Positions 43,516 through 59,353 of a DNA stretch of 64,000 nucleotides are shown here, piece by piece. The notes under the pieces are model-generated. The model worked only from the letters and a program-made list of their open reading frames with translations. It was not told the DNA's origin and made no database searches. Location: positions 1-64,000 of the forward strand of contig JAPKZJ010000090.1 of assembly GCA_026393855.1 (NCBI GenBank). The letters are read 5' to 3'. Position 1 is the first letter of the stretch, and every line of letters starts with the position of its first letter. Both the position numbers and the translations under genes were made by a program. Source of the DNA: Candidatus Aminicenantes bacterium. GTDB lineage: Bacteria; Acidobacteriota; Aminicenantia; Aminicenantales; UBA4085.

Positions 43516-45960
43516 TCAATTGAGAAGCCGCATCGCCCCGCGCAGCTCGACCAGAAGTCCCGGCGAGCCGGTGATGATCCCGGAAGGGAAGCGCCGGTCG
43601 GCCATGATCTCGTCGTAGAGGCTCATGCCCTTGGCGGCGTTGAGCCCGAGCCCGGCCAAGTACTGCAGACGCAGATTGCGGTCGCGGTTGATGGCCGCCC
43701 CCTTGAGATACAAGGCCAGGTCCGGCCCATAGCCGGCGAACGTGCCCAGCAGGGCGGTGGCGGAAGGGAAACCCACTTCCTCGAGCGAGGCCAGAACCGG
43801 AGCCTGGGCCGGCGCGGCCAGCCTTCCAGCCAGGGCGTCCAGATCGATGTGCAGCTCTCCGGCCTGCCCCAACAGCACGACGTCATAGCCCAGGCCTTGT
43901 AGGTCGTTACCCCAGATCGTTCCTCTCGGAAAGACGTCGAAGAAAGTGGCCATCTCGCTCTGGACGGCCTCGCGGGTGCTCTCGTAGAGCGGAACCCATT
44001 GGGTCACCAGCCCGCCCGGATTGAGCCTTTGGCGGACAAGCTCGAAATACTCCTTGGAGTAGAGCGAAGCCGAGCCCTTGACCCAGGGGTGGATGGGGTC
44101 CGAGGTGATGATGTCGAACTTTTCGCGCGTGGTCAGGATGTAGTGGCGGGCGTCGTCGATGACGACCTCGACCCGCGGGTCGTCCAGGACGCCGTGGTTC
44201 TGGGCGGCGAAGAATCGGGCCACGACCTTTGGGATGAGCGGCTCGATCTCGCAGATGACGATCCGTTTGACGCTCGGGTAGGGGACGAACGATCCGGCGG
44301 TCACCCCGGCTCCGCAGCCCACGATCAGCACCGATTCGGGCTTGGGATGGAGCAGGGCCGGGATGTGGCCGAGCATGCGTTGCAGGCGCATGTCCTGCGG
44401 GTCGCTCGAGGCTTCGACCTTGCCCGAGACGTGGAAGTTGGTGATCTGTTCGTCCAGCTTGACGACCGCCACGGATGAGCTCATGCCTTCGCCGACGTAG
44501 AGCGGCGTCCCCTTGATGGTTCGGCTGGCCACGGTCCGGCCCCAGGCGATGATCACCCAAGGCACGCCGGGCACGCTCCAGAGAAGGAGCGCGGTTGCGA
44601 GGAGCGCAGCCGTCCATGCCGGGATCGAGATGCCGAGGCCTCGTTTCGTTGCGGCGGCCGCGAGGGGCTTGCGGCGGTAAACCCCGGCGACAAGGGCGGC
44701 GGCGAAGGCCAGGCCGATCATCAGACGCTGGGACTGCTGGGTGCCGATGGTCGGGATGAAGATCAGGCTGAAGCCGACGGCGCCCAGGATCGCGCCGGCC
44801 GTGTTGGCGGCATAGACCTTGGCGACCGAGCGACCGGGATCACGGCCCGGTCCGGCCACGGAGGCCAAGGTTAGGGGGAAGCTCGCGCCCCAGAGCAGGG
44901 CGGCCGGGAAGACCGCCCAGAGGCATCGGATGAGATCGATCTGGAAGACCGGTCCCGGACTCGCGGCCATGGTCGCGTTGATCGGCCAAAGCGGCAGAGC
45001 TTTTGAAACGGAGAAAGCGGCCCAGGCGATTCCTGCCGTTAACAGGAGCTGGCAGGCTGCGAGCAGAGATCGGGCGGGGATTTTCCCCCTGGCCAGGAGC
45101 GAGCCGGCGCCGCCGCCCAGGCCGATCCCGGCCAGAAAAACGGCCAGGATAATGGAGAACGTGTAGACGGTGCCGCCGAGAAGGAGGGAGAGAAGGCGCG
45201 TCCAGACCACTTCCGCGCCGAGGGCACAGAAGCCGGACAGGCCGATGGCGACGAGAACGGCGGCGGTCCCCCGATCTTCCGATGCGGCCGCCGCGGGAAG
45301 GACGGAGGACTCGGCCTCGCCGGACTCCTTCTTCTGCCGGCGGGCGACGAGGGAAAGCACGAGCGCCGCCGAAGCAACGACCGCGTTGACGGCGACGGCA
45401 ACGTAGGTGGCGACGCCCATGTCGTAGAGGCGCAGAAGATAGAACCCGGCCAGCAGGCAACCGATCACCGCGCCCAGGGTGTTGACGCCGTAGAGCAAGC
45501 CCAGCCAGGAAACGCCTCGCGGCGTCGCCTCGATCCAGCGCGAGATCGCGGGCAGGGTGGCGCCCATGAGGAGGGTGGGAACGAGGAGGCAGGCGGCCCC
45601 GACGACGCCGCGGCCGAGCAGTCCGGCGAAGCCGTGCCCTGCCAACGACGAATAGACCCGGACGACGGCCGGCATGCCGAAAAGGATGGCCAGCCCGCAC
45701 AAGCCGATGCCCGCTTCGAGCGCGGCGTAAACACGGAGCGGGTTACGGCGGGGAGAAACGAGGCGGGGCAGAAGAAGGCTGCCGGCGCCCATGCCACCCA
45801 TGTAAGTCCCCAGAAGAACCGCCAGCGATACCGCAGACGAACCGACCACCATCTCCAATAACTGGAACCAGACGATCTCATAGATCAGGGCGGCGCAGCC
45901 GCTGCCGAGGAAGAGGACGAGAAGCGCGGGAAGATATCGTGAGGCCGGGCGGTCGTTCAT
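43516..45960 (-). CDS. Membrane-fused spermidine synthase-like protein
   Basis: 814 residues. The N-terminal half (about 1-480) has many hydrophobic segments, starting LPALLVLFLGSGCAALIYEIVWFQLLE, a signature of fused MFS-type/spermidine synthase proteins. The C-terminal soluble half carries the class I methyltransferase-like fold of SpeE: VLIVGCGAGVTAGSFVPYPSVKRIVICEIEPLIP (about 605-640) and DDARHYILTTREKFDIITSDPIHPW. Such proteins are widespread but largely uncharacterised; aminopropyl transfer is not demonstrated. ATG 45960 has CGGAGGA upstream. It is divergent from the giant adenylating enzyme with a 57-base shared promoter region (TATACT in between). Confidence 0.85.
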   Translation of the reverse strand: MNDRPASRYLPALLVLFLGSGCAALIYEIVWFQLLEMVVGSSAVSLAVLLGTYMGGMGAGSLLLPRLVSPRRNPLRVYAALEAGIGLCGLAILFGMPAVVRVYSSLAGHGFAGLLGRGVVGAACLLVPTLLMGATLPAISRWIEATPRGVSWLGLLYGVNTLGAVIGCLLAGFYLLRLYDMGVATYVAVAVNAVVASAALVLSLVARRQKKESGEAESSVLPAAAASEDRGTAAVLVAIGLSGFCALGAEVVWTRLLSLLLGGTVYTFSIILAVFLAGIGLGGGAGSLLARGKIPARSLLAACQLLLTAGIAWAAFSVSKALPLWPINATMAASPGPVFQIDLIRCLWAVFPAALLWGASFPLTLASVAGPGRDPGRSVAKVYAANTAGAILGAVGFSLIFIPTIGTQQSQRLMIGLAFAAALVAGVYRRKPLAAAATKRGLGISIPAWTAALLATALLLWSVPGVPWVIIAWGRTVASRTIKGTPLYVGEGMSSSVAVVKLDEQITNFHVSGKVEASSDPQDMRLQRMLGHIPALLHPKPESVLIVGCGAGVTAGSFVPYPSVKRIVICEIEPLIPKVVARFFAAQNHGVLDDPRVEVVIDDARHYILTTREKFDIITSDPIHPWVKGSASLYSKEYFELVRQRLNPGGLVTQWVPLYESTREAVQSEMATFFDVFPRGTIWGNDLQGLGYDVVLLGQAGELHIDLDALAGRLAAPAQAPVLASLEEVGFPSATALLGTFAGYGPDLALYLKGAAINRDRNLRLQYLAGLGLNAAKGMSLYDEIMADRRFPSGIITGSPGLLVELRGAMRLLN

Positions 45961-46017: not shown

Positions 46018-49000
46018 ATGAATTGTTCCCCAATGAACGAAGAACGCCACTCCGCCGTCTCAGCTTTGACGCCGTGCTTGACGGCATGGTTTGGCTCCCA
46101 CGCGGTGGGCGATTCCGGTCGCTTGGCCGGAGAGCTCCTCGCCGTTCTGGAGGAAGCCGTCTCGGCCGGGCCGTTCGATCCCGCCGAGGCCGCGATCGTC
46201 CGAAAGGCGCTGTTTGAAACCGGCCGGCGGCCTTTCCTGCGCGCTTTGGGCGATGACGCCGCCCGCGCCCGTTGGGCCGAGTCCGCCCTGCGGCTCATCC
46301 GCGGCGTCGATTACTCCCTTCTCGAGATGTTCCAGGCCCGGGTCGAAGCCCATCCGGAGAAGGCGCTCTTCCGGGACGCCTCCGGGCCGGCGCCCGCCGA
46401 ATGGAGCTATCGTCAGGTGGAGCGCAAGACGCGGGAGATCGCGGCCGCTTTCTTCCATTTGGCCGCGGCGGACGAGCCGGCCGGGCCGCCGCGCGTGGCG
46501 CTGTTCGCCGACAACGGTGTGGAAAACGCCTGCGCCGACCTGGCCTGTCTTTTCTACGACATCCTGGACACGCCGATCAACACCCATTTCAGCCAAGACA
46601 ATCTGATCGACATCTTCGACCGCCTGGGCATCACCCTGGCCGTGACGGACTCCCCGGCCCGGCGGCTCCTGCTCGAACAAGTCCGGGAAAAGACGGCCGT
46701 CCCGTTCCGGATCGTCGCTCTCGACGCGGGGACGGCCGACGAAAGCCGGGGCGTTCCGTTCTTGGGCGAGGTCTGCAAACGGCTCGGTGCGGCCGAAATC
46801 GACGCTCGGCTCGCCGGCCGCCGGCGGTTCGCCCTCGACGAAGTCGCGACCGTCCTTTTCACTTCGGGCAGCACGGGCCGCCCCAAAGGCGTCTCTTTTT
46901 CGATCTACAACCTCACCGCCAAGCGGTTCGCCCGGGCGGCGGCTTTGCCGGACGTCGGCGAGGATGAAGTCTTTCTCTGCTTCCTGCCGCTCTATCACAC
47001 CTTCGGCCGCTACCTGGAGCTCCTGGGGTCGATTTATTGGGGCGGGACCTACGTCGCCTCGGGTAATCCCTCGCCCGAGCGCCTGTTCTCCCTGTTCCCG
47101 CAGATCCGGCCGACCGGATTCATCAGCGTGCCCATCCGCTGGGCCCAGCTCTACGAGGTTTGCCTGGAGGCGATGGAAGCGGCCGGACCCGGGGCGGACC
47201 CGGCGGTCGTCCTGCGACGGATCGTCGGCCCGGATCTGCGCTGGGGGCTTTCCGCGGCCGGGTTTCTGGACCCCAAGGTTTTCCGGTTCTTCGAGAAAAG
47301 CGGCATCGCCCTCTGCAGCGGCTTCGGGATGACCGAGGCCACGGGCGGCATCACCATGACCCCGCCCGGCCGCTATGTCGACAATGCCCACGGCCTCCCT
47401 CTGCCCGGGATCGAGGCCCGGCTGACCGGAGAAGGGGAGCTCGAAATCCGGGGGGCCTATGTCGCCCGGTATCTCGACGCGGCTCCGCCCGGCGGCGTCG
47501 TGCCCGTCCCCGGCGAGCCTGGCGGGGACGAGTGGCTGGCCACCGGGGATGTCTTCGAAATTTTGCCCAATGGGTATTATCGGATCGTCGACCGGATCAA
47601 GGATATCTACAAGAACACCCGAGGTGAGACGGTCGCTCCGCTCAAGGTCGAGAGCAAGTTCGCCGGAGTGCCCGGCATCAAGCGCACCTTCCTGGTCGGC
47701 GACGGCCGTCCCCACAACGTCCTGTTCATCGTCCCCGACTACGGCGACGCCGTCTTGCGCGCGGCCCTGGACGCCGACGGCGAGCGGGCGTATTACCGCC
47801 GCATCGTCGGCGCGGCCAACCTGGACCTGGCCCCCTACGAACGGGTCGTCAACTTCGCCGTCCTGGATCGCGATTTCGAGGAGGCCCGCGGTGAGCTGAC
47901 GACCAAAGGGTCGTACAACCGCAAGCGGATCGAGGCCGGGTTCGCGGCCGAGATCGAGGCGCTTTACCGCAAGAGCTTCGTCGAGCTGGAGTACCACGGC
48001 TGGCGGGTTCGCATTCCGCACTGGTTCTACCGCGACCTGGGCGTGCTTGAGGACGAGATCTTCTTCGTCGGCGATTTCCTGTTTGATTCGTTCCGCAAGA
48101 CCATGCTGCCGCTGGCGGTCGAGGCCGGCTCGGGCCGACGGCTGATCGGGGACCTGGAGTACCGGATCGAAGGCGCAGTCATCGACTTGGGCGTGTTCGC
48201 CCGCCAGCCGCGTCTCTGGTTCGGCAACCCCGCCCTGGCCCGCTTCTGCCCTTGCCGGGCCGGCTGGGACGTGCCGGCCGAAAGCGTCGCCGAACAGGTC
48301 TTTCTGCCGGCGTCCCGCGACCGGATCTACGGAACTGACGACGTCACAGCCCCGCTTCGAGTCCGGGAGGAGAGCCTCCTCGCGGCCCACAAGCTGGCGT
48401 CCATGGCCCTCTTCGGCGAAACGCCCGAAGCCCGGGCCGCCCTGATCAGGATCGAGGGTCTGCTGGCCGCGCCCGACCTGCGGATCGCGCCGCTGCTTCG
48501 CGCCCGGCTCGAGGCCTCGGCCGGGCATCCGGAGGAGTCGATTCGTTGCGACGCTTACCGCATCCTGCTCCTCGACGAGCCGAACCCCGAGTACGACCGG
48601 GCCCTGACCTCTTTCGTCCATTCGGGGCTGAGCTTTCTCAACGAAGCCTCGATCGAGGCCATCTCTTCTTCGCCGCTCGGGCCGGAGCGCTTCGACGCCC
48701 TCCGTCGTCGCATGGCGGCCTACCGGGAAAGCCTGGCCGGAGGCGGAGAGGAGGCCGAGCCGGCCCGAGCCCAGTTCCTCCGGATCCTTCGGCTGTTCGT
48801 CGACTTCGCCCGCTATCACCCGGACTACTACCGCCATGTCCGGGCCGAGCTGGCCAGCTGGGCTCTGCATAGGGTCGATCCCGAGCTCTCGCGCTCGGCG
48901 GTCTCCCGGCTGAGCGAGCTCGATTCGGACCACGAGGGTTGGCTCGGCCGGCGGCTGCGGCCGCTGTCCCCGCAGGAGTGGGAGGCCCGCCTGGCCTTTG

Positions 49001-50682
49001 ACGAAGGACTGCCGGCGGCCGAAGTCGGCCGCATCCGGCGCATTCTGACGGACCCGACATTCCTGCCGCAGTCGATCGGGCTCGTCTTCGGCCGCGAGGG
49101 CTTCGATCCGAGGGAGATCCCCGCCGACGGCATCTGGGTCTCCCGCCTGCCGGAGTATGACGGCCGGCCCAGCGTCCGCGTCCATGTCCGGAGCGCGTCC
49201 GGCGAGGCCTTCGATCTGCGGCTCATTACGGCGGACGATCTGGGGGTCCAACCGGAGGCCGAGACGCTGTTCTGGCACCTGGCTATCGCCAACTACCCGT
49301 TAGGCGAGCCCATCCTGCCGCGGATCGGGAGCCTCCGGCCGGGCCTCGGCGCTGTGGCCATTCTCTACTCGGGACGGCTCAACGTCTGGGAGAGGCTCCG
49401 GCTCCGTGACGGAGACGAGGAGCCGGAGCGCTCCGTGCTGGGGCCGGGCCGTTGGCGGACGCTGGCCATCGAGGGTATGGCCGCGTTCTTCAAGGCCTGG
49501 CGGTTTTCCGGCGGGCGGATCGTGCCGGGACTCCCGTCCCCGACCAACGTCATGGTCGCCGAAGCAAGCTCGCCGAGGCCCGCGATGATCCACTCGCTGG
49601 CGGGCTGGCGAGCCTACGAGGGGCCGCTGTCTCTCGTCCGGCCGCTTATCCGCAATTTTTTCCTCAAGACCGCGGCCCATTATCCGTGGCTGGCTGGGCG
49701 TCAGGATGTCCGGTGGCTCTTCGACGCCTGCTACGAGGCGCTGGGCTACGCCGAGGCCTCGGCCTTTTTCCAAGCCCTTGCGGCGGCCCTGGAGAAAGAA
49801 CCCGTCGCGGGCCTCGAGGGCGTCGCCTTGGCCGAGTCTTTGAGCGCTTATCTGTCCGAGTTCCGATCCCATTACATGATCCCTCTGCCGGCGGTCAACG
49901 CCGTCCGCCGGTACAAGGAATGGGAGCTGCAAAACGCCCCGTCCGGGGCGGCCGATCGGGAGGGCAAGGTGTTGGAGGTCCTCGGCGTCTTCGGCCTGGA
50001 CCGGTACCCCGAAGCGGCGCGCTACTATCTCTACCGGCAGACTTATTTCGCGGGCGCCTCCGAGGCCGTCCTGGCGGCTTTCGACAAGTTGCTCGGGCGG
50101 ATGACGGAGGAGGTCAAGACGCCGGCCGTGCATTTCGCGGAGCTCTCCGATCTCCAGGCGGCTCTGGCCGACGAAGCCGATAGGGCGGTCTTCGCCAAGA
50201 TGGTCTTTCCCCGGGCCGCGGCCGGCCGAAGCTTCGATATCCGGCCGTTCGGGGAGGACCGCGTCAAGCAGGTTATCGTCCGGTCCGCCGTTTCCGACCG
50301 GAAGGGCGAATCTTATGAATTCGCCGAAACGTTCGACCCGGCGGAGATCGGGCAGCTCTACCGGCTTTTCTATCTCGAGAACTATCCCAAAACGATCTCT
50401 CAGCAGGATCGTCATTATATCCTGCGCGACTCCCGGGAGCGCGTGATGGGCGGGCTGTGTTACCGGCTGATGTCGGCCAATGCCGCGTTCATCGACGGCA
50501 TCGTGATCGCCTCGGCCTTGAAGGGCAGGGGCTTGGGCGGGGCGATGATCGAAGAGTTCTGCCAGCGGATGAGCGCGGCCGGAATCCATGTCATCCTGAC
50601 CCACTTCTATCTGCCCGGATTCTTCCTCCATCAGGGATTTCGGGAGGACAAGCGCTGGGGATCGCTCGTCCGAGAATTGTGA
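46018..50682 (+). CDS. Giant AMP-binding ligase / GNAT acyltransferase fusion (1554 aa)
   Basis: A single uninterrupted frame. Residues about 100-640 form an adenylate-forming (ANL) domain: A3 loop LFTSGSTGRPKGVSF (about 279-293), A5 GFGMTEATGG (about 435), A7 ATGDVFEILPNGYYRIVDRIKDIYKN (about 507-532), and a conserved lysine in LTTKGSYNRKRI. Residues about 660-1430 are not recognisable, but contain WVSRLPEYDGRPSVRVHVRS and a long helical part. Residues about 1440-1554 are a GNAT domain (ASALKGRGLGGAMIEEFCQRM). It likely activates a carboxylic acid and acyl-transfers it, perhaps in lipid or natural-product modification. ATG 46033 is an alternative start. Confidence 0.75.
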   Translation: MNCSPMNEERHSAVSALTPCLTAWFGSHAVGDSGRLAGELLAVLEEAVSAGPFDPAEAAIVRKALFETGRRPFLRALGDDAARARWAESALRLIRGVDYSLLEMFQARVEAHPEKALFRDASGPAPAEWSYRQVERKTREIAAAFFHLAAADEPAGPPRVALFADNGVENACADLACLFYDILDTPINTHFSQDNLIDIFDRLGITLAVTDSPARRLLLEQVREKTAVPFRIVALDAGTADESRGVPFLGEVCKRLGAAEIDARLAGRRRFALDEVATVLFTSGSTGRPKGVSFSIYNLTAKRFARAAALPDVGEDEVFLCFLPLYHTFGRYLELLGSIYWGGTYVASGNPSPERLFSLFPQIRPTGFISVPIRWAQLYEVCLEAMEAAGPGADPAVVLRRIVGPDLRWGLSAAGFLDPKVFRFFEKSGIALCSGFGMTEATGGITMTPPGRYVDNAHGLPLPGIEARLTGEGELEIRGAYVARYLDAAPPGGVVPVPGEPGGDEWLATGDVFEILPNGYYRIVDRIKDIYKNTRGETVAPLKVESKFAGVPGIKRTFLVGDGRPHNVLFIVPDYGDAVLRAALDADGERAYYRRIVGAANLDLAPYERVVNFAVLDRDFEEARGELTTKGSYNRKRIEAGFAAEIEALYRKSFVELEYHGWRVRIPHWFYRDLGVLEDEIFFVGDFLFDSFRKTMLPLAVEAGSGRRLIGDLEYRIEGAVIDLGVFARQPRLWFGNPALARFCPCRAGWDVPAESVAEQVFLPASRDRIYGTDDVTAPLRVREESLLAAHKLASMALFGETPEARAALIRIEGLLAAPDLRIAPLLRARLEASAGHPEESIRCDAYRILLLDEPNPEYDRALTSFVHSGLSFLNEASIEAISSSPLGPERFDALRRRMAAYRESLAGGGEEAEPARAQFLRILRLFVDFARYHPDYYRHVRAELASWALHRVDPELSRSAVSRLSELDSDHEGWLGRRLRPLSPQEWEARLAFDEGLPAAEVGRIRRILTDPTFLPQSIGLVFGREGFDPREIPADGIWVSRLPEYDGRPSVRVHVRSASGEAFDLRLITADDLGVQPEAETLFWHLAIANYPLGEPILPRIGSLRPGLGAVAILYSGRLNVWERLRLRDGDEEPERSVLGPGRWRTLAIEGMAAFFKAWRFSGGRIVPGLPSPTNVMVAEASSPRPAMIHSLAGWRAYEGPLSLVRPLIRNFFLKTAAHYPWLAGRQDVRWLFDACYEALGYAEASAFFQALAAALEKEPVAGLEGVALAESLSAYLSEFRSHYMIPLPAVNAVRRYKEWELQNAPSGAADREGKVLEVLGVFGLDRYPEAARYYLYRQTYFAGASEAVLAAFDKLLGRMTEEVKTPAVHFAELSDLQAALADEADRAVFAKMVFPRAAAGRSFDIRPFGEDRVKQVIVRSAVSDRKGESYEFAETFDPAEIGQLYRLFYLENYPKTISQQDRHYILRDSRERVMGGLCYRLMSANAAFIDGIVIASALKGRGLGGAMIEEFCQRMSAAGIHVILTHFYLPGFFLHQGFREDKRWGSLVREL

Positions 50683-51138: not shown

Positions 51139-51171
51139 ATTATGTATGGTATGGTCCACACAGGAGGATTC

Positions 51172-52176
51172 ATGTTTAACATAAAGCTCGATAAGTCCGA
51201 CGGCTCCAGACCGGCCTATCAGCAAATCATTGATCACATCGAACACCTCATCAGGACTTCCAGGCTCAAAGTGGGAGACAAGATTCCGCCCGAGCGCGAG
51301 CTGGCCGAGATGCTCGGCGCCGCCCGCGGGACGGTCAAAAAGGCCTACGAGGAGCTGTCGCGCAAAGGGTTGATCGAAGTGACCCAAGGCCGAGGGAGCT
51401 TCGTCTCGGCCCCCTACACTCCGTCGATGGCCGACCGCAAAGAGAGGGCCGGGGTTCTCATCGCCGGAGTCATCGACGAGCTCGTCCGCTTTAAGTTCTC
51501 GTACCAGGAGATCAAAGCCTTCTTCGACCTCCGCCTGTTAGAGCGCGAAGAAGCCTTGCGCGATCTGGCGGTGGCGGCGGTCGACTGCAACCCGGAGGCC
51601 CTGGAGATTTACGAGAAGCAGATCTTCCTCCTGCCCTTCGTCAACATGGCCAAGTTCCTCCTGGACGACATCCTCAAGGACCCGGCTCTGGGCCGCCGGC
51701 TGACCCAGTTCGACCTCATCCTGACCACTCCCACCCACATCGAGGACCTCAAGTCCCGCTACCCCGAGCTGGCCGACAAGATCCTGCCGGTGGCCGTGGC
51801 CCCGGCCCGCGACTCGATCATCCGGCTGGCCCGGCTGACGCCCTCACAGCGAATCGGCGTCGTCTGCCGCTCGCCCCGCTTCTTCGCCATCATCACCCGC
51901 CACCTCAAGGAGTTCGGCATCCCGGCCGACAGCATGGCCGTTCTCTACGACCAGGATCTGGAAGGATTGGGCGACTTCATCTGCGGGTTGGATGCCGTCA
52001 TCATCCCGCCCGGACTGTCGCTCATCAGCCGCAAGGAGAACCTGGCCCAAGTCCAGGCCTTCACCGAGCGCGGCGGAATCGTCATCCCCTTCGATTACAA
52101 GATCGAGCAGGGTTCGCTCCTCCACGTCGAGGAGCGCCTGCGCGGAATCCTGGCCGATGCCGCCGGGCGGGCGTGA
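51172..52176 (+). CDS. GntR-family transcriptional regulator of the methylaspartate pathway
   Basis: 334 residues. The N-terminal winged helix is canonical ([61 protein letters not shown], about 14-80). The C-terminal about 240 residues form an effector-binding domain with a helical part and an alpha/beta part ([33 protein letters not shown]) unlike FadR or HutC types. ATG 51172 is chosen for the AGGAGG 4 bases upstream; an in-frame ATG at 51142 lies within the operator region. It is the first gene of the operon, ending 10 bases before GlmS. It presumably senses glutamate or a pathway intermediate (inference). Confidence 0.87.
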
Positions 52177-52186
52177 GGGGCCGGCC

Positions 52187-52603
52187 ATGAACATCGTCCT
52201 CGGAGTCATCGGATCGGACTGCCACTCCGTCGGCAACAAGATCCTGGAGGCCTTCTTCGGCGAAGCCGGCTTCCATGTCGTCAACCTCGGCGTCATGGTC
52301 ACTCAAGAGGAGTTCATCGACGCCGCCGTCGAGTCGGACGCCAAGGCCATCCTGGTTTCGTCGCTCTACGGCCACGGCGAGATCGACTGCGAAGGTCTGC
52401 GCCAGAAATGCATCGAGCGCGGGCTGGAGGACGTCGTTCTCTATGTCGGCGGGAATCTGGTCGTGGGCAAGACGCCCTTCGACGAGATCGAGCGCAAGTT
52501 CAAGGCCATGGGTTTCGATCGGATCTTCCCCCCGAACGCCGATCTGAATCAAGCGGCCGAGGATCTCCGGACCGACATCGCGGCGAGAGGAGCCCATGCC
52601 TGA
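52187..52603 (+). CDS. glmS: Methylaspartate (glutamate) mutase, cobalamin-binding S subunit
   Basis: 138 residues. The B12 motif is [15 protein letters not shown] (DxHxxG; the His ligates cobalt from below), with [18 protein letters not shown] and [10 protein letters not shown] downstream, matching clostridial GlmS along its length. Together with GlmE it binds adenosylcobalamin and converts L-glutamate to (2S,3S)-3-methylaspartate by a radical carbon shift. It sits 10 bases after the regulator and overlaps the MutL start by 8 bases, so translation is coupled. Confidence 0.96.
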
Positions 52604-54005
52604 ACCGGCCTGGCTCAGCGTCGACATCGGGTCGACCTTCACCAAGGGGGCCCTCTTCGTCCCCGAGGGGGACGCCCTGGCCTTGCGGGCCCAGTCCGCC
52701 GTCCCCACGACCGTCGACGACCTTTCGCGCGGCTTCGAGATCGTCGAAGCCGCGCTCAAGGCCGCCGCCGGCCCGGCCGGAATCGGCCGCGCCTATTTCT
52801 CCTCCTCGGCCCGTGGCGGGCTCAAGATCGCCGCCGTCGGGTTGACGACCGACCTGACGGTCTCGATCGCCCGTCTGGCCGCCTGCTCGGCTGGCGGCAA
52901 GGTCGTCAAGGCTTATTCCTATCGCCTGACCCGGGCCGAGATCGAGGAGCTTGAAGGCTTGGCGCCCGACATCGTCCTGTTCACGGGCGGCACGGACGGC
53001 GGCCACGAACGGACCAACCTGGCCAACGCCGAGGCCCTGGCGGCCTCCTCTCTGACGGCCGTGATCCTCTATGCCGGCAACGCCAAGATTCAAGACGAAG
53101 TCCTGGCCCGGCTGAAGGGCAAGAACGCGGTGGCCGCCGCCAACGTCATGCCCGAGGTCGGCGAGGTCCGCATCGAGCCGGCCCGCGAAGTGATCCGCCG
53201 CGTCTTCCTGGAGCGGATCGTAGACGGCAAAGGCCTGTCCCGGATCGTGCGGCGGATCGGGACCGATCCCAAGCCGACGCCCCTGGCGGTCTACGACCTG
53301 GTTCGGACGATCCCCGAGGTTCTGCCCGACTGGGACGATCTGGCTGTCATCGACATGGGTGGCGCGACCACGGATTTCTATTCCAACACCGAATCCGACC
53401 GGGCCGGAGACGGCGTCCTGGTCAAGGGCCTGCCCGAGCCTCGCGTCAAACGCACGGTCGAAGGCGACCTGGGCTTGCGGGTCAGTGTCCTGGCTTTGGC
53501 CGCCTCGCAGGCCGGCGAGATCGAGGACCGGCTGACGGCCGAGGGGTTGGACAAGCCGGGCTTCGACGCGTATGTCGCGGCCGTCGCCGCCCGCCCCGAG
53601 GCGGTCCCCGGCTCCAGGCTCGAAGAGCGCTACGATGCGATCCTGGCCGGCGCCTGCGTTCGGGCCGCAGCGCTTCGCCACGCCGGCCGGCAGACCCGAT
53701 TGGCCACTCTTCAAGGCGTCGTTCACATCCGCCGGGGCAAAGATCTCAGCCGCCTCCGCCGCATTGTCGGGTCCGGCGGCTTCCTGTCCCGCTGCTCCGA
53801 TGCATCCGTCCTGGCGGAAGCCTGCCTCCGGCCCCGGGAGGATCCCGAGGACCGGCCCTTGCTTCCCGCCGCTCCCGAGCTTTTTTCCGACGCCCTGTAT
53901 CTCTTTCCCCTGTTGGGGAATCTCGTCGCCGATCATCCCGCGGAAGCCGCCCGGACGGCCGTCCGCCAAACCATAAAACTGGAACAAGCGAGGTCATCGA
54001 TATGA
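52596..54005 (+). CDS. glmL: Glutamate mutase chaperone/reactivase GlmL (MutL family)
   Basis: 469 residues with an actin/Hsp70-like ATPase fold. Phosphate loops: [14 protein letters not shown] (residues 5-18), [15 protein letters not shown] (about 130-144) and [14 protein letters not shown] (about 250-263). GlmL proteins sit between the S and E subunits in glutamate-fermenting clostridia and are thought to reactivate the B12 enzyme. They are not related to the DNA-repair MutL. The stop overlaps the glmE start by 4 bases. Confidence 0.92.
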
Positions 54006-55450
54006 AACATTTCTCCCTTCCCTGGAAGGACTTCCTGGCCGAACGCGAAGAGGTCCTGCGGGCTTGGCCGACCGGCCGCGGGATCACTCTCGAGGACGGG
54101 GTCCGCTATCAGAGCCAGATCCCCAAGGAAAAAAATTTCGCCTTGGCCATGCGCAAGGCCCGCGAGCTGAAAAAAACCTTGACCCAGCCGCGGGCCGGCG
54201 TCGCCTTGGTCGATCAGCACATCCAGCTCCTCCGCTATCTCGAGTCGGAAGGCGGGGCGGACCTCCTGCCGACGACCATCGACGCCTACACCCGCCAGAA
54301 CCGCTACGAAGAGGCGGCCAAGGGCATCGAAAAGTCGCAGGCCGCCGGCCATTCCCTGCTCAATGGTTTTCCCGCCGTCAACCATGGGCTGGAAGGCTGC
54401 CGACGCGTTACGGAAGCCGTCCGGCGCCCGATCCAAGTCCGGCACGGAACGCCCGATGCCCGCCTGTTGGCGGAGATCACCCTGGCTTCGGGCTTCACCA
54501 GCTTCGAGGGCGGCGGGATCTCCTACAACATCCCCTACGCCAAGAAAGTCCCGCTGGACAAGTCCATCCGGGACTGGCAATATGTCGACCGTCTGGTCGG
54601 CTACTACGAGGAGAACGGCGTCTCGATCAATCGCGAGCCCTTCGGCCCGCTGACCGGGACACTCGTGCCGCCCTTCATCAGCCACACCATCGCCATCCTG
54701 GAAGGCCTGTTGGCCCTGGAGGAGGGCGTCAAGTCGCTGACCCTGGGCTACGGGCAGGGCGGCAACATCATCCAGGATTTGGCCGCCGTCGTCTCCCTGC
54801 GCGAGCTGGCCCACGCCTATTTCCGGGAGGCCGGCCACACCGACTACGACCTGACCATCGTCTTCCACCAGTGGATGGGCGGCTTCCCCGAGGACGAGGC
54901 CAAGGCCTTCGCGGTCATCAACCTGGGCGCCGTTGTGGCGGCCATGGCCAAGGCCGAGAAGATCATCGTCAAGACACCGCATGAAGCCATGGGCATCCCG
55001 ACCAAGGAGGCCAACGCGGCGGGGCTTAAGTCGACCCGCCAGATCCTGAGCATGGTCGAGGAGCAGGTCGTCTGCGCCGACAACGAGTCCGTCCGCGAGG
55101 AAGCCGGGCTGATCGGGCGCGAAGTCGCCTGCCTGATGAAGGCTGTGGCCGCGGCGGGCGAGGGCGACCGGGCCCGCGGCATCGTCCGGGCCTTCGCCGC
55201 CGGCCTGCTCGACGTGCCCTTCGCCCCCTCTTCCTACAACCGGGGCAAAGTCCTGCCGATCAGGGACAATGAGGGCTTTATCCGCGTCTACGCCAAGGGC
55301 TTCCTGCCCCTGGACGCGGAGATCATGGCCGTCCACAAGGCCCGCCTGGACGAGCGGGCCAAGGCCGAAGGCCGCGCCGCCTCCTTCCAAATGGTGACGG
55401 ACGACATCTATGCCATCAGCAAAGGCAAGCTCATCGGGAGGCCGAAATGA
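54002..55450 (+). CDS. glmE: Methylaspartate (glutamate) mutase, catalytic E subunit
   Basis: 482 residues, the normal length for GlmE, forming the TIM barrel that binds glutamate above the cobalamin. Characteristic stretches are TRQNRYEEAAKGIEKSQ, LLNGFPAVNHGLEGCRRV, RHGTPDARLLAEITLASGFT (substrate arginines), EGGGISYNIPYAKKVPL and YGQGGNIIQDLAAV. Overlaps of 4 bases at both ends tie it to glmL and mal. Confidence 0.96.
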   Translation: MKHFSLPWKDFLAEREEVLRAWPTGRGITLEDGVRYQSQIPKEKNFALAMRKARELKKTLTQPRAGVALVDQHIQLLRYLESEGGADLLPTTIDAYTRQNRYEEAAKGIEKSQAAGHSLLNGFPAVNHGLEGCRRVTEAVRRPIQVRHGTPDARLLAEITLASGFTSFEGGGISYNIPYAKKVPLDKSIRDWQYVDRLVGYYEENGVSINREPFGPLTGTLVPPFISHTIAILEGLLALEEGVKSLTLGYGQGGNIIQDLAAVVSLRELAHAYFREAGHTDYDLTIVFHQWMGGFPEDEAKAFAVINLGAVVAAMAKAEKIIVKTPHEAMGIPTKEANAAGLKSTRQILSMVEEQVVCADNESVREEAGLIGREVACLMKAVAAAGEGDRARGIVRAFAAGLLDVPFAPSSYNRGKVLPIRDNEGFIRVYAKGFLPLDAEIMAVHKARLDERAKAEGRAASFQMVTDDIYAISKGKLIGRPK

Positions 55451-56703
55451 AGATTCAGCGAGCTGTCTTCTCGCCCGGCATCTCGGCGTTCTTCTTCGAT
55501 GACCAGCGTGCCGTCAAGGCCGGCGCGGCCCACGACGGATTCGTCTATAAGGGAACGCCGGTGACCCCGGGCTTCCGAAGCATTCGCCAGGCCGGGCAGA
55601 GCGTCTCGGTCAATCTGATCCTGGAGGACGGGTCCGTCGCCGTCGGCGACTGCGCCGCCGTCCAGTATTCCGGAGCCGGGGGGCGCGATCCGCTGTTCCA
55701 GGCGGCCGAAATCATCCCCTTCCTGGAGAGCCGCATCCGGCCGCTCCTCGAGGGTCGGACGATCAATCCGTTCCGGACCATGGCGGCCGAATTCGAGGGT
55801 CTGGAGTTCGACGGCAAGCGTCTCCACACCGCGGTCCGCTACGGGCTGTCGCAAGCTCTTCTCAGCGCCCGGGCCCTGGAGCGGCGCCGGCTGATGGCCG
55901 AGGTCGTGGCCGAGGAATACGGCCAGGCCCCGCCCGACGCCCGCGTCCCCATTTTCGGGCAAAGCGGCGACAACCGCTACGAGAACGTGGACAAAATGAT
56001 CCTCAAGGAGGTCGACGTCCTCCCGCACGGGCTCATCAACCACATCGACGAGAAGCTCGGCCGCAACGGCGAAAAGCTTCGCGAGTACGTCGAGTGGCTG
56101 GTCCGCCGGATCAAGGCCCTGCGCCGGCGCGAGGATTACCGGCCGGCGCTCCACATCGACGTCTACGGCACGATCGGCGCCGCCCTGGGCTTGGACGCCG
56201 GGGTCATCGCCGATTATTTGGCCGGGCTGGAAAAGGCCGCCGGCGGCCATCGCCTCTATATCGAGGGGCCGGTCGACGTCGAGGAGAAGGGCCGCCAGAT
56301 CGAGACGCTGAAGGCGATCACCGAGGCCCTGCGGGCCAAGGGCTGCGGCGTCAAGATCGTGGCCGACGAGTGGTGCAACACGCTCGAGGACATCCGCGAC
56401 TTCACCGACGCGGGGGCCTGCCACATGGTCCAGATCAAGACGCCCGACCTGGGCGGGGTGCAGAACATCGCCGAGAGCGTGCTGTACTGCAAGGCCCGCG
56501 GCATGGAGGCCTACCAGGGCGGCACCTGCAACGAAACCGACGTCTCGGCCCGGGCCTGTGTCCACATCGCCGTGGCCGTCCGGGCCGATCTGACCCTGGC
56601 CAAGCCCGGCATGGGCTTCGACGAGGGCTTCACCATCGTCAACAACGAGATGGAGCGCATCCTGGCCGTGGCCAAGGCCCGGCGGGAAGGAGCGACGAGA
56701 TGA
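55447..56703 (+). CDS. mal: Methylaspartate ammonia-lyase
   Basis: A 418-residue enolase-superfamily enzyme removing ammonia from 3-methylaspartate to give mesaconate. Mg ligands lie in LHIDVYGTIG (about 238), IEGPVDVEEK (about 273) and IVADEWCNT (about 308). The catalytic base lysine is in VQIKTPDLGGVQN (about 331-340), followed by YQGGTCNETDVSA and the C-terminal GMGFDEGFTIV. Length matches the clostridial enzyme (413). It is coupled to glmE and to the AtuA-family gene by ATGA overlaps. Confidence 0.96.
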   Translation: MKIQRAVFSPGISAFFFDDQRAVKAGAAHDGFVYKGTPVTPGFRSIRQAGQSVSVNLILEDGSVAVGDCAAVQYSGAGGRDPLFQAAEIIPFLESRIRPLLEGRTINPFRTMAAEFEGLEFDGKRLHTAVRYGLSQALLSARALERRRLMAEVVAEEYGQAPPDARVPIFGQSGDNRYENVDKMILKEVDVLPHGLINHIDEKLGRNGEKLREYVEWLVRRIKALRRREDYRPALHIDVYGTIGAALGLDAGVIADYLAGLEKAAGGHRLYIEGPVDVEEKGRQIETLKAITEALRAKGCGVKIVADEWCNTLEDIRDFTDAGACHMVQIKTPDLGGVQNIAESVLYCKARGMEAYQGGTCNETDVSARACVHIAVAVRADLTLAKPGMGFDEGFTIVNNEMERILAVAKARREGATR

Positions 56704-58064
56704 GAAAACGCGAAGACGAATTCCGGGTTTTATCGACCACCGCCATCTTGGGCTACGGCTTCCCCCAGGCCTCTTTCGAGGCCGGTCTGCGCCGGCGCCC
56801 GCACCTAATCGCCGTCGACGCGGGATCGACCGACCCCGGTCCCTACTACCTCGGCGCCGGCAAGTCGTTCACCAACCGGGACGCCGTCAAGCGCGACCTC
56901 CGGTTCATGCTCAAGGCCGGGATCGCCCGCGGCATCCCGGTCGTTATCGGCAGCGCCGGCGGCAGCGGCGCCCGGCCCCATGTCGACTGGTGCGAGGCCA
57001 TTGTCCGCGAAATCGCCCGCGAGGAGAAGCTCAAGTTCCGGATGGCCGTCGTCTACGCCGACGTGGACAAGCGCCGGGTCCGGGCCCACCTCCGCAAGGG
57101 CGAGATCGTGCCGTTGGCCTGTGTCCCGCCGCTGGACGAAGAGACGCTGGATGCCTCCATCAACATCGTCGCCCAGATGGGTGTGGAACCGCTCCTGCAG
57201 GCCCTCGACACGGGCTGCGACGTGGTCCTGGCAGGCCGCTGCTACGACCCGGCGGTCTTCGCCGCGCCGGCCATCCGCCGAGGCTTCGACCCCGGCTTGG
57301 CCCTGCATATGGGCAAGATCCTGGAGTGTGCGGCCATCGCCGCCACCCCCGGCTCGGGCGCCGATTGCGCCATGGGCACGCTGAAGAAAGACTCGTTCAT
57401 CTTGGAGGCCCTGAACCCCAAGCGCAAGTTCACCAAGGCTTCCACCGCCGCCCACACTCTTTACGAGAAGTCCGACCCCACCCATCTTCCGGGCCCGGGC
57501 GGCGAGATCGACCTGACCGACTGCACTTTCACCGAGCTGCCCGGCGGGCGGGTCGAAGTGCGCGGCAGCCGGCACGTTGATTCCGAGCGGTATTACGTCA
57601 AGCTCGAGGGCGTCCGGCGGGCCGGCTTCCGGACCATCTCCGTGGCCGGGACCCGCGACCCGATCATGATCGCCTCGATCGACCCGATCCTGAAGGCCGT
57701 CGAGGCCCAAGTTCGGGACATCCTGAAAGCCGAGAAGATCGCCGGCCGGGTCTGCTTCCACGTCTACGGCCGCGACGGCGTCATGGGCGCTCTGGAGCCC
57801 GAGACCGAGATTCGCGGCCACGAGCTGGGCCTGGTCATCGAGGCCGTGGCCCCGACCGAGCGCGAGTCGGAGTCGCTCTGCAGCCTGACCCGGTCCACAC
57901 TCCTGCACTACGGCTACCCCGGCCGCATTTCCACGGCCGGCAACCTGGCCTTCCCGTTCTCGCCCTCGGACGTTAAGATGGGCGAGGTCTTCGAATTTTC
58001 GCTCTACCACCTGATGCCGGTCAAGGACCAGGGCATCTTCAAGATCCGGACCGTCCGGATCTGA
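56700..58064 (+). CDS. AtuA-family (DUF1446) protein
   Basis: 454 residues. The family pattern is clear: LSTTAILGYGFPQASFEAGL, IAVDAGSTDPGPYYLGAGKSF (about 37-57), VVIGSAGGSGARPHVDW (about 80-96), PLLQALDTGCDVVLAGRCYDPAVFAAP and HTLYEKSDPTHLPGPGGEIDL. AtuA-type proteins occur in acyclic terpene utilisation and other acyl-CoA catabolic loci, but the reaction is unknown. The start overlaps the mal stop. In this operon it is followed by DUF4387, which looks like the detached C-terminal partner of AtuA-like proteins. It may act on mesaconate, citramalate or their CoA esters (inference). Confidence 0.88.
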   Translation: MRKREDEFRVLSTTAILGYGFPQASFEAGLRRRPHLIAVDAGSTDPGPYYLGAGKSFTNRDAVKRDLRFMLKAGIARGIPVVIGSAGGSGARPHVDWCEAIVREIAREEKLKFRMAVVYADVDKRRVRAHLRKGEIVPLACVPPLDEETLDASINIVAQMGVEPLLQALDTGCDVVLAGRCYDPAVFAAPAIRRGFDPGLALHMGKILECAAIAATPGSGADCAMGTLKKDSFILEALNPKRKFTKASTAAHTLYEKSDPTHLPGPGGEIDLTDCTFTELPGGRVEVRGSRHVDSERYYVKLEGVRRAGFRTISVAGTRDPIMIASIDPILKAVEAQVRDILKAEKIAGRVCFHVYGRDGVMGALEPETEIRGHELGLVIEAVAPTERESESLCSLTRSTLLHYGYPGRISTAGNLAFPFSPSDVKMGEVFEFSLYHLMPVKDQGIFKIRTVRI

Positions 58065-58081: not shown

Positions 58082-58393
58082 ATGGCCCAATCCATCCTCA
58101 AAGCCGCCCGCGTCATCCGCTCCAAGAACTCCGGCCCGTACGAACTGACGCTTGACATCATCTTCAAGAACAAGCGATATTATGACCTGTTCCGGAGGCG
58201 GGGCATCGTCACGAAGAAGAGCATCGCCGCCCTCTACCGGCGACCGGTCAAAGACGTCCTCAAGCTGCTCTATTTCGAGCCCGCGACCGCCCTCAAGATC
58301 ACCCTGCGGCGCCCCATCCCGTCCGGACACCCGGGCGAGACCGATATTTACGGCGCCCAGCAGCACGCGCCCCTGCTGCGGATCACCTACTAA
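58082..58393 (+). CDS. DUF4387 protein
   Basis: 103 residues matching the DUF4387 pattern from end to end: IRSKNSGPYELTLDIIFKN near the start, KKSIAALYRRPVKDV in the middle and the invariant GETDIYGAQQHAPLLRI at the C-terminus. DUF4387 genes usually sit next to AtuA/DUF1446 genes, suggesting a complex or a split enzyme. The invariant YGAQQHAPLL could be an active-site or interface loop. It follows the AtuA gene by 17 bases behind an AAGGAG site. Confidence 0.88.
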   Translation: MAQSILKAARVIRSKNSGPYELTLDIIFKNKRYYDLFRRRGIVTKKSIAALYRRPVKDVLKLLYFEPATALKITLRRPIPSGHPGETDIYGAQQHAPLLRITY

Positions 58394-58408: not shown

Positions 58409-59353
58409 ATGCGATACCGGTTCAGTTCCGGCCCGCGCGAGACGCTGGTCTACGCCACCTACTACGCCCCGCACGGCCGCCTGCGCCTCTACAGCGTCGC
58501 GGCCGAGCTGTCCCAGCGCTACCTGATGCCGACCGACCTGCTGATCGGAATCATCGGCGCCGAGGGCTCGGGCAAGTCGACTCTGATCAAGGGCCTCTTC
58601 CCGGGCCTGGAGCTGACCAACGACGACGACGGCATCAACGTCCAGCCGACGCCGCTGCTCCACTTCCAGCCGGACGACCCGTTCTCGGGCCACACCTTCC
58701 ACATCGACATCCGCTACGAGTCGGCCTTCCATCAGATCTACGAGATCGTCGAGGCCGTCAACAGCGCCATCACCCGCGGCCGGCGGGTCATCATCGAGCA
58801 CTTCGACCTGCTCTACGGGGCCCTGGGCTACAACGCCCAGGTCCTGATCGGGATCGGCGAGGAGATCATCGTGGCCCGGCCGACGATGTTCGGCCCCTTC
58901 CCCAAGTCGATCAAGTCGATCGTCCACCGGACGATCAAGTTCCGGCGGATGGCCCACTCGGCCGAGGATATCGTCAACTCGATCCTGCGGCGCGACCATC
59001 CCTATCTCCTGCCCTCCTCCCACTCCGATGTCAAGCAGGGCTTCGTCATCAACTTCCACCACAAGCCCGACATCGACCTGGCCGAGCTGGAGCGCAAGGC
59101 CTTGGAAGTCATCGCCCAGGACGTGCCCATTTCGCCGGTAGGGGAGGATCGCATCACCATCGGCGACTGCGCCATGCCTTGCACCGGGACGCGGACCCAC
59201 GTCACTTCCTCGGGCAAGATCGATAACTTCCGGCTGATCAAGGAGTTCAAGTACGACCCGATCGCCAAGGAATACCTCCTGATCGGGCTGATCGGCCGCA
59301 AGACGATCGTGGGGTTCGAGGACATGGTCGACGTCTCGCGCTTGGACAAATAA
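58409..59353 (+). CDS. P-loop protein with AlaRS second-additional-domain-like C-terminus
   Basis: 314 residues. The N-terminal half holds a nucleoside-kinase-like P-loop, GIIGAEGSGKSTLIKGLFPG (about 48-67), then GRRVIIEHFDLLYGALGYNAQ resembling a Walker B region. The C-terminal half (about 225-290) resembles the metal-binding second additional domain of alanyl-tRNA synthetase: ITIGDCAMPCTGTRTHVTSSGKIDNFRLI. Proteins of this description are annotated as alanine-tRNA synthetase second additional domain-containing. The role is unknown. Position between DUF4387 and the mesaconase suggests a pathway-linked kinase, ligase or cofactor-handling function. GGGAGG precedes the ATG. Confidence 0.75.
   Translation: MRYRFSSGPRETLVYATYYAPHGRLRLYSVAAELSQRYLMPTDLLIGIIGAEGSGKSTLIKGLFPGLELTNDDDGINVQPTPLLHFQPDDPFSGHTFHIDIRYESAFHQIYEIVEAVNSAITRGRRVIIEHFDLLYGALGYNAQVLIGIGEEIIVARPTMFGPFPKSIKSIVHRTIKFRRMAHSAEDIVNSILRRDHPYLLPSSHSDVKQGFVINFHHKPDIDLAELERKALEVIAQDVPISPVGEDRITIGDCAMPCTGTRTHVTSSGKIDNFRLIKEFKYDPIAKEYLLIGLIGRKTIVGFEDMVDVSRLDK

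Follow-up and report, generated by a model that had tools for sequence, protein, structure and literature searches.

The SAD fold is known for the removal of wrong amino acids from tRNA, and free-standing AlaX proteins act in trans. P-loop and SAD domains are also paired in nucleoside kinases with a TGS-SAD-uridine kinase layout. The methylaspartate pathway has been under study since about 1960. In the passages of PMC4041444 that deal with ThrRS, residues H73, H77, C182 and H186 are all described as critical for Ser-tRNA editing. TsaE resets TsaD-TsaB through ATP hydrolysis; TsaB, a paralogue of TsaD, is itself of the ASKHA type (passages of PMC11648230 and PMC9654439). According to the relevant sections of PMC8473912 and PMC4682846, the methylaspartate pathway of glutamate fermentation is textbook knowledge, and fumarase-type enzymes of the kind considered below cluster with its genes (PMC4682846).

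We analysed a window of 64,000 nucleotides from a Candidatus Aminicenantes bacterium, meaning the whole stretch at its full length. It carries an operon of this pathway together with a gene that we call PSAD:

51142 to 52176, + strand: GntR-family regulator at the operon head (Pfam GntR, 5.9e-19)
52187 to 52603, + strand: glmS, glutamate (methylaspartate) mutase subunit S (NF002612, 2.7e-65, over cut-off)
52596 to 54005, + strand: glmL, mutase accessory protein (TIGR01319, 1.1e-118, over cut-off)
54002 to 55450, + strand: glmE, mutase subunit E (TIGR01503, 3.5e-219)
55447 to 56703, + strand: methylaspartate ammonia-lyase (TIGR01502, 8e-175)
56700 to 58064, + strand: AtuA-like protein, identified as CmlA, subunit A of citramalate lyase (phmmer 1.2e-171 to chain A of PDB 9erq/9evf)
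58082 to 58393, + strand: DUF4387 protein, identified as CmlB, subunit B of citramalate lyase (phmmer 9e-27 to chain B of PDB 9erq/9evf)
58409 to 59353, + strand: PSAD (314 aa), in which a TsaE-like ATPase is fused to a SAD domain
58442 to 58903, + strand: N-terminal P-loop domain of PSAD, residues about 12-165, TsaE/YjeE fold
58556 to 58582, + strand: Walker A motif of PSAD, GAEGSGKST, residues 50-58
58931 to 59299, + strand: C-terminal SAD domain of PSAD, residues about 175-297
58955 to 58969, + strand: H183-S-A-E-D187 of PSAD, equivalent to ThrRS H73xxxH77 except for Asp in place of the second His
59180 to 59200, + strand: C258-x-G-x-R-x-H264 of PSAD (CTGTRTH, residues 258-264), counterpart of ThrRS C182xxxH186 plus two residues
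59370 to 60977, + strand: class I fumarase, most likely the mesaconase (Pfam Fumerase, Fumerase_C)

Since the AtuA-like and DUF4387 proteins match CmlAB (for the AtuA-like model against 9evf chain A, TM 0.92 and 57% identity), the operon covers the route from glutamate through 3-methylaspartate, mesaconate and citramalate to acetate plus pyruvate. The amino-acid catabolic operon of the preliminary description is thus one of methylaspartate glutamate fermentation. PSAD is its sole gene without an assigned step; every other gene except the GntR regulator has a place in the pathway. Because all catalytic steps are assigned and pathway genes exist elsewhere without PSAD, we regard PSAD as accessory and not as a step. 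Its open reading frame is real, with the boundaries first proposed for it (ATG at 58409, TAA at 59353), and encodes a 35-kDa protein; 15-17 nt separate it from its same-strand neighbours, the DUF4387 gene upstream (a gap of 15 nt) and the class I fumarase gene downstream (16 nt). Upstream of the operon, positions 46018-50682 encode a protein of 1554 aa that combines AMP-binding with GNAT acetyltransferase domains and has tblastn matches in 13 of the 82 PSAD loci described below.

The PSAD sequence has no Pfam or NCBIfam match above cut-off, no model in either collection is dedicated to its family, and the PDB gave no sequence relative apart from matches to Walker A and some weak stretches. The predicted structure (AlphaFold2, 54-row alignment; pLDDT 86, pTM 0.83) contains both a P-loop core and an AlaRS/ThrRS-type SAD fold; the preliminary description had anticipated a P-loop and an AlaRS-type domain. 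When this model was compared with known structures (VIA-align), residues ~12-165 superimposed on TsaE/YjeE chains (Z 9.2-9.9, rmsd 3.4-4.4, 123-132 residues aligned), with ABC and PilT chains ranking after TsaE (Z 7.8 and below). The TsaE profile scored 48 against this half in hhalign, the maximum among the 20 column-shuffled controls run for each comparison being 17.7. Pfam TsaE matched 48 of 54 family members at E <= 1 (best 9.6e-4, sub-cut-off), while general P-loop families matched equally often (ABC_tran, 53/54); the window's PSAD is absent from the TsaE (PF02367) matches at E <= 1, and the PF02367 gathering score was not reached. The P-loop half, first described as kinase-like, thus appears to have the fold of TsaE rather than that of a kinase. 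Uridine kinases of close relatives (3 genes, 20 genomes) aligned at the Walker A stretch only (hhalign 36 versus 18.2 for shuffled profiles, 23 columns), and kinases are absent from the 50 best structural rows, which are filled by matches to the two domains and are hence no proof that kinase matches are lacking. PSAD also differs from the TGS-SAD-uridine kinases, as far as their description goes, in P-loop family, in its reverse domain order and in its much shorter length.

PSAD shares with TsaE (YjeE) the fold, the helix before Walker A and Walker A itself. Because the PSAD-TsaE profile alignment is reliable no further than Walker A, H98, D100 and E130 were matched to later TsaE motifs by eye. 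By the same approach S57, E130 and H131 would be the counterparts of T43, E108 and W109 in E. coli TsaE, which the profile alignment does not confirm; the E130-H131 pair is invariant in 88/88 PSAD proteins, its relation to the Mg-binding Glu and switch residues of E. coli TsaE (E108, W109 and Y82) resting on the alignment that is unreliable past Walker A. We rejected PSAD as a substitute for TsaE in t6A synthesis on the indirect ground that separate true TsaE genes coexist with it in five genomes (G089, G083, G081, G057 and G052). TsaE was found in 21 of 25 searched genomes and not in the PSAD-carrying drafts G000 (the window genome), G088 and G043, where assembly gaps are the probable cause. 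A role as an anti-phage protein was likewise dismissed, as the PADLOC matches cover Walker A only (11-17 bits).

The C-terminal half (residues ~175-297 of the predicted model) superimposed on AlaX, AlaRS and ThrRS chains with Z 11.4-14.6 (rmsd 2.5-4.2, 118-154 residues; VIA-align). Its hhalign scores were 60 for the ThrRS SAD, 41 for AlaX and 41 for AlaRS, with shuffled maxima of 19, 28 and 24, respectively. The proposal of an AlaRS-type editing domain thus holds as far as the SAD fold is concerned, but the closest kin is ThrRS. Pfam tRNA_SAD matched 43 of 54 members at E <= 1 (best 1.3e-4, sub-cut-off). With the editing domain of ThrRS (SAD/N2) PSAD shares the fold, the HSA motif, the GF(V/Y) strand and the C...H-V-x-S-T/S-G-x-I motif; it differs in having Asp for the second His, a last His preceded by two additional residues, 29 fewer residues between the last helix and the Cys, and an ATPase instead of a synthetase as partner. 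The AlaX/AlaRS editing domain has the same fold (Z up to 14.6) but matches less well in sequence than ThrRS does, and PSAD has neither the second HxxxH histidine nor the N-terminal domain of AlaX. Profile alignments place the stretch that PSAD lacks relative to AlaRS and ThrRS SADs, 22-29 residues, between the last helix and the Cys motif. The canonical HxxxH and CxxxH tetrad is replaced by HxxxD in 87 of 88 proteins (HxxxE in one) and by Cx5H in 87 of 88 (Cx5Q in one). Three of the four residue types are retained, with counterparts for ThrRS H73, C182 and H186 and Asp in place of H77. As a separate observation, the AlaRS frame of the window genome (L173, contig C123, about 45147-45278) contains one in-frame TAG just before CGGAH, either an assembly error or real.

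Conservation was assessed on 122 matching loci, which, after one short fragment was dropped, gave 88 distinct full-length proteins. Invariant in all 88 are G50, G53, G55, K56, S57, H98, D100, E130, H131, H183, E186, C258, G260 and R262, whereas D187 (one E), H205, S206, D207 and H264 (one Q) are kept in 87 and R102 in 84. GAEGSGKST is accordingly a valid Walker A, as had been proposed. Of the Cys/His ligands whose conservation was in question, H183, C258 and H264 are kept, and the position of the second ThrRS histidine is held by D187. The retention of these residues across 88 distinct proteins argues that the motifs are not due to chance, and with the nucleotide-binding site and the H-D-C-H tetrad almost invariant both halves look active. 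With a mean pI of 5.9, the PSAD proteins are mildly acidic. By computation, PSAD is a TsaE-like P-loop ATPase fused to a shortened ThrRS-type SAD domain and kept in the methylaspartate glutamate-fermentation operon: the parts are known, the architecture is new. In the open-licence literature we found no description of PSAD, its domain pair or methylaspartate mischarging; both folds are known, and their combination and its tie to the pathway were not found described there.

A scan of genome contigs gave at least 594 pattern matches, at least 532 of them encoding PSAD relatives. PSAD is therefore a conserved family of the pathway and not the odd one-off fusion that it had been taken for. The best 80 were retained, and two plasmid records added more distant members (46-47% identity). 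Within the window's order (94 genomes) PSAD occurs in 32 genomes and GlmE in 29, and all 29 GlmE genomes have PSAD; PSAD stands without GlmE in G062, G073 and G065, the last with a match that is weak and broken. Among 392 Planctomycetota genomes, PSAD was found in 6 (E <= 1e-20) and a GlmE-family match in 12, of which six are full-scoring and lie in the same six PSAD genomes, one is divergent and five fall below cut-off. Canonical GlmE and PSAD are thus found in the same genomes in two of the three sampled groups. The third, Spirochaetota (198 genomes), has a strong PSAD match in 7 genomes, GlmE in 14 and both in 5; 9 of the 14 GlmE genomes have no PSAD (one of these GlmE is a fragment and one divergent), and the 2 PSAD-only cases lie on contigs of 6.6 and 4.1 kb. 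Seven more Spirochaetota gave weak matches (L130-L137, E 4e-5 to 8e-4) to the Walker A region only and were excluded from the family. Plasmids carry GlmE-family genes in 30 records and PSAD in 2, and a sample of 369 genomes from the class of Aromatoleum gave one canonical and four divergent GlmE genes. The cluster of E. coli O157 Sakai contains the mutase, ammonia-lyase, CmlAB and FumD and no PSAD gene; ECs_0767 (314 aa, near glmS) is unrelated to PSAD. The Sakai CmlAB pair (L114, 4934-6618; AtuA 60% identity) lies next to FumD and is annotated as an ammonia-lyase and an acyl-CoA synthetase. The fate of citramalate in this strain is left open in the passages of PMC4682846 that bear on it.

The genomic context was examined in 82 loci, namely the best 80 of the at least 532 relatives and the two plasmid records. 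The gene upstream of PSAD is DUF4387 in 68 loci (in one further locus it lies farther off), ammonia-lyase in 3, CitE in 3 and CitC in 1; 3 loci end at a contig edge and in 3 none was found. Downstream lies a same-strand fumarase in 56, an opposite-strand fumarase in 1 and CitX in 1, with none found in 19 and an edge in 5. Ammonia-lyase is present in 68 loci and GlmE in 62, many loci being cut by contig ends. Of 12 genomes picked for having no GlmE in the PSAD locus, GlmE was found elsewhere in 8, and in the other four the PSAD locus is near a contig end; a 13th (L093) has GlmE inside the locus. AtuA occurs in 68 loci and CitE in 4, and the AtuA/DUF4387 and CitE modules never occur together. 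The alternative citramalate-cleaving modules are a CitDEF-type lyase in L031 and CitE in L060, L100 and L103, the last two with two further genes that resemble, by eye, a succinyl-CoA-synthetase-type ligase; in L073 and L087 no such module was detected between ammonia-lyase and PSAD. PSAD hence stays with the glutamate-mutase/ammonia-lyase core across three citramalate-cleaving modules or none detected. Because it also accompanies CitE, CitDEF or, in the interval from ammonia-lyase to PSAD, neither, we rejected it as a subunit or cofactor gene of citramalate lyase, CmlA and CmlB being the two deposited subunits. Apparent fusions to neighbours (long frames in L019 and L022) proved to be neighbouring genes read through in another frame. 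The PSAD cluster of Peptoclostridium acidaminophilum (L031) neighbours an operon for histidine degradation, a route that supplies glutamate.

Several observations could fit a small-molecule role, with PSAD as an ATP-dependent, tRNA-free hydrolase or repair enzyme for a pathway metabolite or protein adduct, such as methylaspartate, mesaconate or citramalate in the form of an acyl ester, thioester or acyl phosphate. In Peptoclostridium, a citrate/citramalate-lyase cluster has PSAD placed between its citC and citX genes, both sites are conserved, the family is mildly acidic and the SAD domain is without the 22-29 residues of the tRNA-editing versions. Nevertheless, no pathway side product is known that would need PSAD, and we know of no SAD protein that acts on a non-tRNA substrate; we consider such a role unlikely. 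A GntR regulator shares the locus in 41/82 cases and some lineages dispense with PSAD, as might be expected of a metabolite sensor whose SAD domain binds methylaspartate or another pathway acid and whose ATPase signals to expression or enzyme activity. This appears quite improbable, as PSAD has no DNA-binding or output domain, its catalytic cysteine and histidines are almost invariant, and it evolves at the pace of the operon's enzymes.

We compared distances over the 28 loci that have all eight genes. The mean distance of PSAD (0.44) is close to that of CmlA (0.43), and GlmL is the fastest-evolving of the operon proteins (0.86, the others 0.31-0.64). PSAD distances correlate with those of GlmE (0.90), ammonia-lyase, GlmS and GlmL (0.89 each), AtuA and DUF4387 (0.86 each) and fumarase (0.80). 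GlmS (0.42) and DUF4387 (0.36) have the highest partial correlations; that of GlmL is 0.25, and for fumarase the value is nil (0.01). Due to shared tree history, such values rank candidates and prove no contact. The GlmS value would suit a reactivase or assembly ATPase, in which the TsaE-like half resets a partner (mesaconase, GlmL or glutamate mutase), the SAD domain serving only for docking or ligand binding. Like TsaB, GlmL presumably belongs to the ASKHA superfamily, and the mesaconase gene not only follows PSAD in 56/82 loci but stays with it in Gracilinema/Treponema (L095, L098, L099), where the two stand apart from the glm operon. The ATP-driven reset of TsaD-TsaB provides a precedent (passages of PMC11648230 and PMC9654439). 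However, the partial correlations with mesaconase and GlmL are low, GlmL was not found in three operons that have PSAD (L050, L060, L111), and a docking module has no need of the invariant H-D-C-R-H site. Moreover, E. coli FumD, from a cluster without PSAD, is an active mesaconase when made heterologously, as reported in a passage of PMC4682846. We rate this role as rather unlikely.

Near-invariant sites in both halves and enzyme-like slow evolution suggest that PSAD is probably an active, coupled enzyme. We tentatively propose, as the leading possibility though short of even likelihood, that PSAD strips wrongly charged 3-methylaspartate from tRNA as an ATP-switched hydrolase; its chief rivals are the reactivase and sensor roles. 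The SAD half would hydrolyse an aminoacyl ester, and the ATPase half would gate or reset it as TsaE resets TsaD-TsaB. The likeliest substrate would be (2S,3S)-3-methylaspartate attached in error to a tRNA, probably tRNA-Asp, so that PSAD would act as a pathway-borne proofreading factor shielding the proteome from a catabolic intermediate. The proposal is made because 3-methylaspartate is the only non-protein amino acid of the pathway and AspRS takes another beta-substituted Asp: L-threo-beta-hydroxyaspartate is charged by AspRS and used by the ribosome (as stated in part of PMC1989143). In the open-licence literature no report was found of AspRS accepting 3-methylaspartate. In favour of editing we count both folds, the consistent sub-cut-off Pfam matches, the three retained tetrad residues, the co-occurrence with GlmE, the persistence of PSAD across citramalate-cleaving modules, and a divergence that tracks the GlmS/E/L and ammonia-lyase core more than mesaconase. 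Against it we count the mildly acidic pI, the shortened SAD domain and the one changed tetrad residue; moreover, to our knowledge SAD editing of the described kind needs no ATP. E. coli O157 Sakai and the 9 PSAD-less GlmE Spirochaetota also argue against editing, as they should make methylaspartate too. Of the two reactions that the preliminary description had considered for an aminoacyl product, hydrolysis would be the best guess, and nothing supports ligation. That PSAD represents a new class of trans-editing enzyme, a catabolic operon's own proofreader for 3-methylaspartate-mischarged tRNA and the first with a TsaE-type ATPase, is a more doubtful extension of the proposal.

Now that CmlAB is in the PDB, PSAD alone among the genes of the full operon has no assigned role, and the protein is conserved in many phyla. 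If methylaspartyl-tRNA proofreading proves true, one operon would tie the metabolism of an unusual amino acid to translation fidelity, and other pathways that make amino-acid look-alikes may hold similar proofreaders, which would be worth searching for. If PSAD is instead a reactivase, a TsaE-type ATPase would join the helpers of B12 or Fe-S enzymes.
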